A stretch of DNA of 64,000 nucleotides, from NCBI RefSeq assembly GCF_040412085.2, contig NZ_CP115920.1, positions 2,604,001 through 2,668,000 on the forward strand. The letters run 5' to 3'. This DNA is from Vibrio sp. CB1-14. GTDB taxonomy: Bacteria > Pseudomonadota > Gammaproteobacteria > Enterobacterales > Vibrionaceae. The notes beneath the pieces were generated by a model. That model searched no databases. It was not told the DNA's origin and worked only from the letters and a program-made list of their open reading frames with translations. Shown piece by piece: positions 405 to 31,295 of the stretch; positions within the stretch are counted from its first letter, which is position 1; the number at the start of each line of letters is the position of its first letter. The position numbers and the translations under genes are program-made.

Positions 405-489
<85 letters not shown>

Positions 490-567
490 CATTTTGTTAG
501 TTGATGATGTCAGCTAACCAACTTGAATCGACGCGTTGGGAAAACATCGACCAAGTATAAAACCCCT

Positions 568-652
<85 letters not shown>

Positions 653-731
653 TATTTTGTTAGTTGACGATATCAGCTAACCAACTTGAATCGACGCGTT
701 GGGAAAACATCGACCAAGTATAAAAACCCCT

Positions 732-816
<85 letters not shown>

Positions 817-894
817 TATTTTGTTAGTTGACGATATCAGCTAGCCAACTTGAATCGACGCGTTGGGAAAACATCGACCAAGTATAAAACCCCT

Positions 895-979
<85 letters not shown>

Positions 980-1057
980 TATTTTGTTAGTTGACGATAT
1001 CAGCTAACCAACTTGAATCGACGCGTTGGGAAAACATCGACCAAGTATAAAACCCCT

Positions 1058-1142
<85 letters not shown>

Positions 1143-8478: not shown

Positions 8479-8494
8479 TGTGATTGCAATCACA
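8479..8494. promoter_or_regulatory. CRP (cAMP receptor protein) binding site
   Basis: TGTGATTGCAATCACA is a perfect TGTGA-N6-TCACA palindrome. It extends to AAATGTGATTGCAATCACAT. It sits in the 645-bp region between oppA and the LuxR-type gene. It is well placed to activate the opp operon leftward. Confidence 0.85.
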
Positions 8495-26817: not shown

Positions 26818-28935
26818 TTACTTATAAAAGTTCTCTTCTAGGCCTGCTCTCGTCACGAGTCCATCACAAGGTGCAAAGCGGTCACCGTATTTCTGAGCAT
26901 GCTCATTCATTAAGTCGACGACTTTTTTGATACCCAAAGAGTCCATGTAACGGAATGGGCCACCCAAGAATGGCGGAAAACCGATGCCGAAGATGGCACC
27001 AATGTCACCGTCACGAGGGCTGCGAATAATGCCTTCATCTAAACAGCGTACCGCCTCATTAAGCATTGGCAGCACACAGCGGATCGCGATATCTTTTTCT
27101 GACATTGTCGCTTCAGGCTTAAGACCTAACACGCTATACACTGAGCTATCAACGGTCTTCTTCTTACCTTTGTAAGTGTAAAAACCTTTACCGGACTTCC
27201 GCCCTTTTCGACCATCATTCAACAGCTTGTCGAAGACGTCAGGCCCTTGGAATCGCTCACCCAATTCATTGACCAAAATCGGCATGATCTTAGCGCCAAT
27301 ATCCACGCCAACTTCGTCAAGCAGCGTAATCGGCCCAACAGGGAACCCGAAGTCTAATAATGCTCTATCCAATGACTCAATAGGTTCGTTCGCAAGAAGC
27401 ACGTTCGCCGACTCATTCATATAGGGCGCAAGAATACGGTTTACATAGAAACCCGCTTGGTCTTTCACCACAATCGGCGTCTTACCTTGCTTTCTTGCAA
27501 ACTGAACCATAGTGGCGATGGTCTCTTCTGACGTCGTCTCATGAGGAATGACTTCCACTAGAGGCATTTTGTCTGCAGGGCTGAAATAGTGCAGACCAAC
27601 CACATTTTCTGGACGCTCAGCTTTTTCTGCAATCTGTGCGATTGGAATCGATGACGTGTTGGTCGCAAAAATAGTGGTTGGCTTCGCGTGCGTTTCCACA
27701 TCATTCACCATTTGCTGTTTTAGACCTAAGTCTTCAAACACGGCTTCAACCACTACGTCCGCTTTATCGAATCCGGTAAAGTCGGTGCCACCTGCCATTT
27801 GCAGCATTTGCGCTTGCAAATCTGCTTTAGAAATAATGCGGCGCTTGCGCTTTTTCTCTAATAGCTTGAAGTTGTAACCCAGCGCGTTGACGATACCATC
27901 ATTAGACACATCTTTAATTCGCACTGGCACTTTAGCTTTGCTGACTGTGACATGAGTAATACCCGCCCCCATTAACCCGCCACCAAGGACTACAGCGTTA
28001 TTTACCGTGTTTGGCTTAGCATCACTACCAAATTCTTTCTTCATTTCAGTGGTTGCAAAGAAGATAGAACGCAGCGCTTTTGACTCAGACGTCATGACGA
28101 GCTCACCGAAACGCTTAGCTTCGTTTTCTAGCCCTTTCTTCATGCCTTTCTCGAGACCATAACGAATCACATCCAAAATAGCGTCTGCTGCTGGATAATT
28201 GCCGCGGGTTTTTTCGTTAGTCTTTTTCGCTGCCTGATCAAAAATCACCTTGCGGCCAAGGCCAGTACCCGCCATTAGCACTTCTTTCTTGCTCAGTTTC
28301 TTGGCTTTGCGTTTTTTGCCTTTTTCCAAAAACTGTTTAGCCACATCTAGCAGAATAGTCTTCGGTACACTCGCATCAACCACGCCAAGCTTTTTGGCTT
28401 TTTTAGCGCGAAGCTGTTTACCCGTTAAGATGAGATCTAATGATGGCAGCAAACCAATCAAACGTGGCAATCGTTGAGTACCGCCAGATCCAGGCAATAA
28501 TCCAAGCTGCACTTCTGGTAAGCCGAGCTTAGTAATACCAGCATCACTACAGACTCGGTAGTCACACGCCAGCGCCAGCTCAAGCCCACCACCTAGACAA
28601 GGTCCGTGTATCGCCGAAACAACTGGGAAGGGCAAATCTGAAAGCTGCTGGAACATCTCTTGTCCTTTAGCTGCTAAAGACTGAGCTTCTTCAGCTGAAG
28701 TACAAGCATCAAGCATTCTTACGTCGGCACCAGCGATGAAGTTATCCGGTTTAAGCGAGTGGACTATCAGTCCTTTTAACTCAGATTTTTTCTGCTCTAA
28801 CTCTTCAAACAGCTGCGCCATCTCTTCCGCAAACGCAGCTTGTAACGTATTCATTTTTTCGCCTGGCACATCGATGCCAAGCCATGCGATGTTCTGCTCA
28901 TCTACTGAAAGATGAAAGGCTTTTTGTTCACTCAT
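26818..28935 (-). CDS. fadJ: Fatty acid oxidation complex alpha subunit FadJ
   Basis: A 705-aa multifunctional enzyme (E. coli 714). The N-terminal enoyl-CoA hydratase domain has [18 protein letters not shown] and [18 protein letters not shown]. The 3-hydroxyacyl-CoA dehydrogenase domain starts at [15 protein letters not shown] (about residue 315), with [17 protein letters not shown]. With FadI it forms the second beta-oxidation complex, used without oxygen in E. coli. The ATG at 28935 overlaps the fadI stop as TAATG, and GGAGG lies seven bases upstream. Confidence 0.96.
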
Positions 28936-30257
28936 TATTCTACCTCCAGAACCATTGCTGCACCCAAGCCACCTGCTGCACACGCAGTATTAAGAGCAAG
29001 CCCTCCCCCGCGTCGCTTCAGTTCATTCAGCGTTTGCGTAATCATTCGCGCACCAGTGGCAGCGAACGGGTGACCGTAAGCAAGGGAGCCACCAAGAACG
29101 TTGAACTTATCCATGTCAATTTCACCGATCGCTTGAGAGCGACCCAATTTTTCTCGAGCGAACTTCTCGCTGGCAAACATCTTCACATTAGAGAGCGCTT
29201 GCGCCGCAAAGGCTTCGTGCATATCAATCAGCGTTAGGTCGGACAAAGAGATACCCGCGCGATCTAGCGCCATCGGTGTGGCATAGGAAGGCCCCATCAA
29301 CATATCTTCACGCACACCAATTGCTGAGAAGGCGTAAGAACGGATATAGCCTTTGATTTCAAGCCCAAGCTCTTTCGCTCGCCCTTCACGCATCAACATA
29401 ATCGCTGCTGCGCCATCCGTTAGCGGCGTACTGTTTGCTGCTGTAACGCTGCCATATTGTCTATCAAATGCTGGACGCAGTTTGCTGTAGCTAGAAAGTT
29501 CAGAGTCGTGGCGGATGTTGTTGTCTTCATCCAAGCTCTTCTTATAAGGCTCTGGAAACGCCGACATGACTTCGTCGCGCACTTTACCTTCTTTCCATGC
29601 TTGAGAGGCGAGAGTGTGAGAGCGGTGAGCAAGCCCGTCTTGTTCTAAACGAGTGATACCATGCGACTTAGCCATTTGCTCGGCAGTTTGGCCCATAGAA
29701 AGGCCTGTCGAGTACTCTGCGACGGCAGGTGGCACTGGCATCAAATCTTTAAACGATAGCTTTTTAAGAATATTGAGTTTTTGACCGACCGTTTTTGTTT
29801 TACTCAGAGCCAATAGGTTGGCAGCAAGTTTCTTGGATACGCCAATTGGTAGCACGGAAGATGAGTCTGCTCCACCAGCGATACCGGCGTCTATCGTCCC
29901 TGCCATGATACTTTCACAAACGTTGGCAGCGGCTTGGAAGCTCGTCGCACAAGCGCGAGTTACACTGTAGGCATCAGTATTAATGTCCATTCCAGTGCCC
30001 AGTACAATTTCACGAGCAATATTTGGCGCTTCTGGCATTTGCACTACTTGACCAAACACCACTTGGTCGATCAACTTAGGATCAATGTTGGTGCGCGCCA
30101 TCATTTCGGCTACGACCATTTTTCCTAAGTCCACCGCTGGTACTTGACTAAATTCGGTACTTTGGCGGGCAAAAGGGGTACGAAGCCCCGCCACAACAGC
30201 AATTCGCTCACCATTTCTAGTGGTGAGATCGATTTTCCCCACGTCCTTACTGCTCAT
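28935..30257 (-). CDS. fadI: Acetyl-CoA C-acyltransferase FadI
   Basis: A 440-aa thiolase (E. coli FadI 436). It cleaves 3-ketoacyl-CoA to acetyl-CoA and shortened acyl-CoA in the FadIJ complex. The acyl-accepting cysteine is in [13 protein letters not shown], the GHP motif is [12 protein letters not shown], and the C-terminal cysteine is in [14 protein letters not shown]. The start at 30257 is preceded by AGGAAGGAGAAA. A FadR-like operator lies 16 bases upstream. First gene of the fadIJ operon. Confidence 0.96.
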
Positions 30258-30272: not shown

Positions 30273-30297
30273 AAGAGGTCTGACCACACGCATTGTA
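30273..30297 (-). promoter_or_regulatory. fadIJ promoter with FadR-like operator
   Basis: GGTCTGACC inside AGAGGTCTGACCACA (30275-30289) matches the FadR core GGTCNGACC exactly. On the minus strand a -10 candidate TACAAT covers 30297-30292, putting the start near 30285, inside the operator. FadR bound there would block transcription until long-chain acyl-CoA releases it. Confidence 0.72.
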
Positions 30298-30452: not shown

Positions 30453-30484
30453 AAAAAAAAACCACACAGATAATTTGTGTGGTT
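30453..30484 (-). terminator. Orphan intrinsic terminator
   Basis: On the minus strand AACCACACA - AATTATC - TGTGTGGTT followed by a run of T: a nine-pair perfect stem and a long U tail. On the plus strand there is no T tract. No minus-strand gene ends here, so it points to an unannotated RNA upstream of it. Confidence 0.9.
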
Positions 30485-30617
30485 GGAATCTCTAAAGCAA
30501 TTAACTTGCGCCAATTGAAAATAATCAGTTTCCTGATTAGGAGAAAGTAAAGTCAGCCTTCAAAAGGAAGTGTCATCTTGCTCAACATGTTAGTCCCGAA
30601 AGACCAACGAGATGACA
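30453..30617 (-). ncRNA. Candidate FNR-activated small RNA between fadI and the sigma-factor gene
   Basis: About 165 nt from the predicted start at 30617 to the orphan terminator. The 5' end forms a hairpin: UGUCAUCU (30617-30610) pairs with AGAUGACA (30578-30571) around an inner GUUGGUC/GACUAAC stem. A second hairpin, UAAUCAG-GAAA-CUGAUUA (30539-30522), has a GNRA loop. Between them lies an unpaired UUUACUUUCUCC stretch. No protein-coding frame fits. I do not recognise it as a known Vibrio RNA. Its UUUCUCCU is complementary to the fadI Shine-Dalgarno AGGAGAAA, which could be a target or chance. Confidence 0.6.
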
Positions 30618-30623
30618 GGGTTC

Positions 30624-30664
30624 ACTATAACTGCTCCACAGGTCGGAATTTTGAACTAGATCAA
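30624..30664 (-). promoter_or_regulatory. FNR-type class II promoter for the candidate small RNA
   Basis: On the minus strand TTGATctagTTCAA (30664-30651) matches the FNR consensus TTGAT-N4-ATCAA at 9 of 10 positions. A -10 box TATAGT (30629-30624) follows. The predicted start at 30617 puts the site centre (30657.5) about 40.5 bp upstream, essentially the class II position of -41.5. Reading the other way, no -10 lies at the right distance. Confidence 0.6.
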
Positions 30665-30719
30665 TTTTGTGTGACTTTACTGACACTGCAGAACAAAAAA
30701 CACGGTTCACAGAGCGAAA

Positions 30720-31295
30720 ATGGGGGCTCCTGTGTCATTAATTAAAAATTTTGGAAATAAATTCTCCAAACGTCCGGTCAACTCGGATATGGACAGACAA
30801 AGAAAATACGAAGCACTGGTGCGTGCTTATCATCGCGACCTTTTCCGATACGCGTATTGGCTATGCAAAGACAAGCCTATCGCGGAGGATTTGGTTCAGG
30901 AAACTTGCCTTCGAGCTTGGAAGTCATTAGACAGCTTGCAAGATGAAAAGGCAGCGAAATCGTGGCTTATCACTATTTTGCGCAGAGAGAACGCAAGACG
31001 TTTTGAACGTAAGCAGTTCGATCTGGTCGATATTGATGACTACGGCAACGATGCAAAAGTCTCTGATGACCCTCACCACCAACAGGAATGGCTTCAAGCA
31101 CAGATAATGAAACTCGACGTCGAGTATCGCGAACCTCTTTTTCTGCAAGTCGTCGGCGGCTTTAGTGGTGAAGAGATTGGCAACATACTCGACTTAAACA
31201 AGAATACCGTTATGACTCGATTATTTAGAGCTCGAAACCAGCTTAAAGAGATGCTTGAGTCTGAGGATGCACATAGGGGGCAACAAAATGGATGA
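30720..31295 (+). CDS. ECF-type sigma-70 family RNA polymerase sigma factor
   Basis: 191 aa from the first ATG, or 168 aa from ATG 30789 (MDRQRKYEALVRAYH), which fits the family better; neither has a good ribosome site. Region 2 is RDLFRYAYWLCKDKPIAEDLVQETCLRAWKSL, and region 4 is FLQVVGGFSGEEIGNILDLNKNTVMTRLFRARNQL. It is of the ECF group and directs RNA polymerase to an unknown regulon. It overlaps the next gene by eight bases, which is typical of a sigma/anti-sigma pair. Confidence 0.88.
   Translation: MGAPVSLIKNFGNKFSKRPVNSDMDRQRKYEALVRAYHRDLFRYAYWLCKDKPIAEDLVQETCLRAWKSLDSLQDEKAAKSWLITILRRENARRFERKQFDLVDIDDYGNDAKVSDDPHHQQEWLQAQIMKLDVEYREPLFLQVVGGFSGEEIGNILDLNKNTVMTRLFRARNQLKEMLESEDAHRGQQNG

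Follow-up and report, generated by a model that had tools for sequence, protein, structure and literature searches.

The window, a stretch of 64,000 nucleotides from Vibrio sp. CB1-14 (contig NZ_CP115920.1, positions 2,604,001 to 2,668,000 of the forward strand), holds on its minus strand a 164-nt small RNA (sRNA) gene that sits between fadI and a divergent gene for an extracytoplasmic function (ECF) sigma factor (Table 1). Along the minus strand the FNR-like site TTGATctagTTCAA is followed by a 21-nt spacer, the hexamer TATAGT and a 164-nt stretch ending in an intrinsic terminator; the presumed start, G30616, lies 7 nt downstream of the -10 box. No gene-sized open reading frame (ORF) in front of the terminator appears in the ORF list of the window. 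A short ORF was considered and rejected, as its commonest reading (MLSKMTLPFEG) is found in 15 of 86 loci, with no ORF in 19 and 33 different outcomes. An earlier note had proposed an FNR-activated sRNA here, pointing to a terminator with a 9-pair stem and T tract and no gene in front of it, a TATAGT box and a 9/10 FNR-like site; all are present on the minus strand where it placed them, except that the site is centred at -41.5 from G30616 rather than at -40.5.

By synteny, strand and size the RNA is the orthologue of Vcr043 of V. cholerae, a known RNA and not a new one; the sRNA proposed in the earlier note is real, having been published from the same locus and strand at the same size. Vcr043 was reportedly first described in a 2015 differential RNA sequencing paper. 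It lies between VC1045, a sigma-70 factor gene, and VC1046, is transcribed away from VC1045 and is about 160 nt long; the starts of Vcr043 and VC1045 are 25 bp apart and their promoters partly overlap (PMC8545128). From the gene order VC1046 would be fadI. V. mimicus displays the order sigma gene, RNA, fadI, fadJ, matching the window, and both V. mimicus and V. metoecus were matched. The window RNA shares with Vcr043 the locus beside a divergent sigma gene, the strand, a length of about 160 nt, a promoter of its own and a terminator. Vcr043 has been captured by Hfq RIL-seq (RNA interaction by ligation and sequencing), with validated targets including grxA, vc0036 and sdhC and a suggested role in electron transport (PMC9732341); it forms chimeras with rpoS mRNA, and an rpoS reporter rises about 3-fold upon its overexpression (PMC8545128). 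Maturation by RNase E with stable intermediates (PMC7398697) and Hfq-dependent stability (PMC5089854) are also reported. FNR goes unmentioned in the main texts of PMC8545128, PMC9732341, PMC7398697, PMC5089854 and PMC7695739; in PMC9438474, which names Vcr043, FNR concerns NarS and a reference only. No paper linking Vcr043 to FNR was found in a search of main texts, with subscription literature and supplements mostly outside it, and no anoxic expression data for Vcr043 were found in the literature. The RNA and its targets are already published; what is added here is the proposed FNR link.

The reading preferred here, to which a probability of roughly 0.78 is given, is that Vcr043 is an sRNA of the Vibrionaceae with its own promoter, activated by FNR under anoxia and pairing in trans with respiratory mRNAs. 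Conservation of the promoter was followed in 86 loci from 8 genera, comprising 56 loci of the genus and 30 chosen for diversity from matching genomes. TTGATnnnnTTCAA is found in 81 of the 86; the remaining five loci carry TTGATCTACTGCAA, TTGATCTGGTGCAA, TTGATCTAAGCCAA, TTGATCTGTTACAA and TGGATTTATTTCAA, each 8/10 and at the same position. With eight starts allowed, a 9/10 site is present in 81 of 86 loci compared to 174 of 52,704 control windows (0.33%) elsewhere in the same loci, a ratio that does not amount to a probability since related loci are non-independent. The spacing from site to -10 box is 21 nt in 84 of 86 loci by script and in L022 and L069 by eye. Across the 56 aligned loci the -10 box is TATAGT in 48 and TATATT in 8, and mean majority identity reaches 0.954 over the FNR-like site and 0.976 over the -10 box, with 0.605 over the spacer between them; it is because of this conservation among loci that the site stands above chance. 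The promoter is not listed by a simple sigma-70 scan of the window and has no -35 hexamer at normal spacing, which is expected for an activator-dependent promoter. Position -41.5 is that of class II activation, and the anatomy of the promoter together with its conservation suggests dependence on FNR.

Table 1. Features of the sRNA locus, in window coordinates.
Feature	Position	Strand	Remarks
FNR-like site TTGATctagTTCAA	30651..30664	minus	9/10 to TTGAT-N4-ATCAA; centred at -41.5
-10 hexamer TATAGT	30624..30629	minus	21 nt after the FNR-like site
Small RNA gene, Vcr043 orthologue	30453..30616	minus	covariance model match; fold z -3.69; start presumed
5' hairpin, two stacked helices with bulge	30572..30616	minus	both-side change in 11/14 pairs
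Nearly invariant GUUGAGCA	30579..30586	minus	candidate seed to sdhC; mean unpaired probability 0.54 vs 0.44 for the RNA
Most conserved linker ACUUCCUUUUGAAGGCUGACUUUACUUUCUCCU	30539..30571	minus	candidate second seed and anti-Shine-Dalgarno stretch
Hairpin with GAAA loop	30522..30539	minus	98.2% of cells paired; both-side change in 1/7 pairs
Third hairpin	30498..30517	minus	95.2% of cells paired; both-side change in 3/8 pairs
Intrinsic terminator	30453..30484	minus	9-pair stem 30484..30460 and T tract
FadR-like core TGGTCAGACCT	30276..30286	minus	just before fadI
fadI	28935..30257	minus	TIGR02446; downstream of the RNA, same strand
CRP-like sequence TGTCAgtaaagTCACA	30670..30685	minus	centred at -61.5; 1 mismatch; 3 found vs 2.54 expected
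Divergent ECF-type sigma factor gene	30720..31295	plus	NF009170

The overlap of the Vcr043 and VC1045 promoters in V. cholerae, with starts 25 bp apart (PMC8545128), would fit an FNR site that serves the divergent sigma gene and lies close to the RNA incidentally. This is considered highly improbable, as the site and its 21-nt spacing persist in the 8 loci that yielded no sigma gene; L065, L070-L073, L085 and L089 (7 of the 8) carry TTGATnnnnTTCAA, and L069 carries TTGATCTGTTACAA. Among loci over 2.5 kb, fadI is present in 58 of 59 and the sigma gene in 51 of 59.

The RNA itself is conserved throughout much of the family. In a set of 100 genomes, BLAST of the region gave a match in 56 of the 61 that belong to the genus (the source genome counted) and in 0 of 39 from other families; within the family 275 of 329 genomes and 8 of 13 genera were matched. 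RNA length is 150-169 nt across the 56 genus loci, where mean majority identity is 0.85 to 0.98 over the RNA, 0.417 past the terminator and 0.445 for 30720..30691. A covariance model of the transcript only, built from the 41 genus sequences left after a set of 62 was thinned at 96% identity (the window itself being one of the 41), matched 280 of 329 family genomes in 9 of 13 genera and, in an order-wide sample of 394 genomes, 34, of which 30 are Vibrionaceae; the 4 matches outside the family, and more of the kind in a laxer search, were rejected as chance.

In the laxer covariance search, run on 39 selected genomes, 17 yielded a total of 24 matches. Of these, six (G227, G259, G219, G258, G243 and G114, the last from another genus; E 1.3e-5 to 5.7e-3) are RNAs so changed that BLAST did not list their genomes, and they carry 9/10 FNR sites at -39.5 to -41.5 from the first base of the model; they are called orthologues partly through the FNR site, which leaves the test not fully independent, though the model covers the transcript only. 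In G286 and G253 (L165, L166) the sites have decayed to 8/10 and 7/10 along with the RNAs, a natural loss lineage. The promoter element is therefore kept while the RNA drifts, and both decay in two genomes. The other 16 matches have no FNR-like site above 7/10 and no fixed position and are probably false. At L168, L169, L170, L173 and L176 the promoter is intact while the RNA core is strongly changed (e.g. GUUUCCUUUUAGACUGACUUCAAUC) and UUGAGCA is gone; target rewiring at these loci is possible. Among the named genomes, G219, G227, G258, G259 and G243 have RNAs from which the UUGAGCA seed has disappeared. A pattern scan of genome contigs returned 8 stretches, V. cholerae not being among them; two, L061 and L064, lie in unrelated metagenome-assembled genomes and are taken as chance.

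The predicted fold has an energy of -45.1 kcal/mol (z = -3.69; 0 of 200 shuffles as good) and contains the 5' hairpin and GAAA-loop hairpin that the earlier note described. In the 41 genus sequences 97.4% of cells pair and 16 of 37 pairs are changed on both sides, compared to a shuffle mean of 7.1, with 0 of 500 shuffles reaching 16; slid controls gave 6 or 7 both-side pairs, with no more than 49.9% of cells paired. The covariation signal comes mainly from the 5' hairpin; the GAAA hairpin and the terminator (97.9% of cells paired, both-side change in 1 of 8 pairs) are nearly invariant and say little, and unconstrained RNAalifold draws the middle part differently, choosing neither the GAAA hairpin nor the third hairpin. 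Most of the 20 aligned sequences from other genera have a longer 5' hairpin and a few a shorter one; the linker UUUUGAAGGCUGACUUUACUUUCUCC hardly varies among them. Mean column identity reaches 0.98 for 30569..30520, and CTTTCTCCT has an unpaired probability of 0.70. Loss of the stem pairs or of the FNR site in related vibrios had been named as what would speak against the proposal; the stems covary, and site and spacing are kept across 8 genera.

As to the regulator, the genome encodes FNR (NF008365; Cys 20, 23, 29 and 122) and a CRP. The perfect pattern TTGATnnnnATCAA occurs at 32 places in the genome and its reversed counterpart at 5; a single recurring form, TTGATTATCATCAA or its complement, accounts for 10 of the 32 and is probably a repeat. 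At seven of its places (L097-L099, L101-L103, L105) no ORF of at least 90 aa starts within 400 nt, and TTGATTATCATCAA is thus likely to represent a repeat rather than FNR sites. Other TTGATnnnnATCAA places adjoin arcA, nrdD and, by position arithmetic, fnr itself; some adjoin unrelated genes (catalase/peroxidase) or fall inside ORFs. Sites of this kind do occur at classic FNR targets of the genome, which says nothing of FNR binding at the RNA.

Sites for CRP and FNR are related, and a CRP-like sequence stands at -61.5 in the window, so the conserved site may instead be bound by CRP or another factor and the RNA follow carbon supply rather than oxygen. We regard this as quite improbable. The CRP-like sequence is attractive by its exact placing but was rejected as not conserved: of the aligned loci, only those of the clade to which the window belongs have it intact, and 30690..30665 shows a conservation of 0.60. 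Both half-sites of the conserved element are of FNR type by the consensus, and a PF00325 search of the genome, which covers family members with that domain and neither those lacking it nor ArcA, returned two proteins, FNR and CRP. A perfect CRP-type palindrome, TGTGATTGCAATCACA, is found elsewhere in the window at 8479..8494.

The FNR-like site also lies upstream of fadI, for which an Fnr site has been predicted before. Searching -500 to +100, Ravcheev et al. (2007) reported a conserved Fnr site for fadIJ, marked in V. vulnificus, V. parahaemolyticus, V. cholerae and V. fischeri, and the fadIJ products are said there to serve beta-oxidation mainly during anaerobiosis (PMC1805755). The FNR-like site precedes fadI by 249 to 621 nt (median 421.5) in the 78 loci that were measurable out of 92 tried (the 86 and six named ones, some of them second copies), and in 74 of the 78 no other 9/10 site lies between it and fadI. 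The 2007 site is most likely the FNR-like site of the RNA; the 2007 study gave the site to fadIJ, and Vcr043 was reported later. The start of fadI could be located in 73 of the 86 loci, and in 69 of these the FadR-like core TGGTCAGACCT scores 8 or 9 of 10 against the FadR consensus; letter-permuted FadR palindromes reached a mean of 2.8 and at most 11 of 73. The site is assigned to the RNA first because it stands at -41.5 of the RNA promoter, with a terminator and the FadR-like core before fadI.

The same neighbourhood could be read as a 5' leader or attenuator of fadIJ, in which case the FNR promoter would serve fadIJ and the short RNA would be a prematurely ended or processed leader. Such a leader has some appeal: in 58 of 59 loci fadI follows on the RNA's own strand, Vcr043 is one of 14 V. 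cholerae sRNAs counted as potential 5' untranslated regions (PMC5089854), and the conserved Fnr site has been given to fadIJ in four Vibrionaceae (PMC1805755). It is nonetheless unlikely. The FadR-like core that 69 of 73 loci carry past the terminator, ahead of fadI, suggests a separate fadIJ start there, the 5' arm of the terminator has no clear antiterminator partner (longest complementary run at most 6 in 56 of 56 loci), and Hfq-dependent stability and regulation of other mRNAs are published for Vcr043 (PMC9732341, PMC5089854). One FNR promoter with two outputs, the RNA acting in trans (on sdhC, and raising RpoS) and read-through of the terminator feeding fadIJ, is an outside chance; the fixed neighbourhood of RNA and fadI across genera and the 2007 fadIJ prediction would follow from it.

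For the preferred reading, an sRNA acting in trans, the pairing of the conserved segments was compared with gene starts. The invariant UUGAGCA is complementary to UGCUCAA just upstream of the sdhC Shine-Dalgarno, a predicted pairing; in 9 of 13 genomes sdhC can form 7 or more Watson-Crick pairs with the seed, a number reached by 6 of 121 other gene starts. Leaders of grxA offer at least 8 pairs with CUUUCUCCU and its surroundings in 8 of 14 genomes compared to 17 of 121, a weak pairing because any Shine-Dalgarno resembles its match. In one draft genome, G058 (L151), rpoS reads as two pieces, which may be real or an assembly fault.

Several results weigh against the preferred reading. The FNR match alone is at chance level, with 4 matches of at most 1 mismatch in the window compared to 2.98 expected, and its right half-site is TTCAA instead of ATCAA; the earlier note's argument that four independent signals make chance unlikely finds no support in the FNR match, and the promoter is absent from the sigma-70 scan. 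The 30 loci added to those of the genus were drawn from genomes already known to match. Orthology with Vcr043 rests on synteny, size and close relatives. On blots Vcr043 is present at similar levels in all growth phases in lysogeny broth (LB) (PMC8545128); dense LB cultures may run short of oxygen, and a basal, FNR-independent level of Vcr043 is equally possible. Of the 13 genomes, 2 have the sdhC pairing disrupted and 2 more have it reduced to 6 bp, and the null windows were shorter (50 vs 70 nt), which favours sdhC, and include related genes. Full-length duplex energies in five genomes rank sdhC at 15-29% of the null, with values for grxA scattered between 0.8 and 75%, and do not discriminate for either. 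In the genome G055 the RNA is present but no sdhC match was obtained; sdhC therefore cannot be the only target.

The preferred reading would have the following course. As oxygen falls, iron-sulphur FNR would bind the site at -41.5 and recruit RNA polymerase to a promoter with a -10 box and no usable -35. The RNA would end at the intrinsic terminator before fadI, in keeping with the published band of about 160 nt, and would bind Hfq as is published for Vcr043. UUGAGCA is then predicted to pair with UGCUCAA before the Shine-Dalgarno of sdhC, itself a published target, and the CUUUCUCCU stretch might pair, weakly, with Shine-Dalgarno regions such as that of grxA; the rpoS leader, the activation of which is published, would be activated by pairing. 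The net effect would be an anaerobic arm adjusting aerobic respiration and RpoS post-transcriptionally, a job like that of FnrS.

FnrS is an Hfq-class RNA of the Enterobacteriaceae with an FNR-type promoter and an intrinsic terminator that acts in anaerobic metabolism. The window RNA, with its conserved FNR site at about -41.5 of its promoter, would share all of these traits; it differs in lacking an Rfam match, in its locus and in the families in which it is found. The lack of sequence likeness remarked on in the earlier note is borne out: within the window five tRNAs alone score above the Rfam gathering score, and the RNA is without a match, FnrS (RF01796) giving none even at E up to 5. In the order the FnrS model matched 31 of 394 genomes (29 of family f19 and 2 of f11), with 0 of the 31 in Vibrionaceae, under strict filters by which weak matches can be lost. 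The best weak Rfam match to the RNA, the Phe_leader attenuator (RF01859), was rejected at 23.1 bits compared to a gathering score of 55 bits, as were weak AaHKsRNA82 and Qrr matches far below cut-off. By analogy, FnrS and the Vibrionaceae RNA may do the same job. If the preferred reading is right, the Vibrionaceae, a family in which FnrS gave no match, have an oxygen-controlled sRNA of their own, linked to RpoS, and the attribution of the site to fadIJ made in 2007 needs revision; the proposal joins that prediction, the Vcr043 sRNA and its electron-transport targets.

Beyond the sRNA, the window features further genes on the far side of the sigma factor. Directly after the sigma gene lies a gene for a DUF3379 protein (PF11859; 31291..32007), which by position is possibly its anti-sigma factor; two long ORFs that by eye resemble fadL come after the DUF3379 gene. 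The five tRNA genes are arranged in tandem at 405..1139 and have equal Rfam scores.
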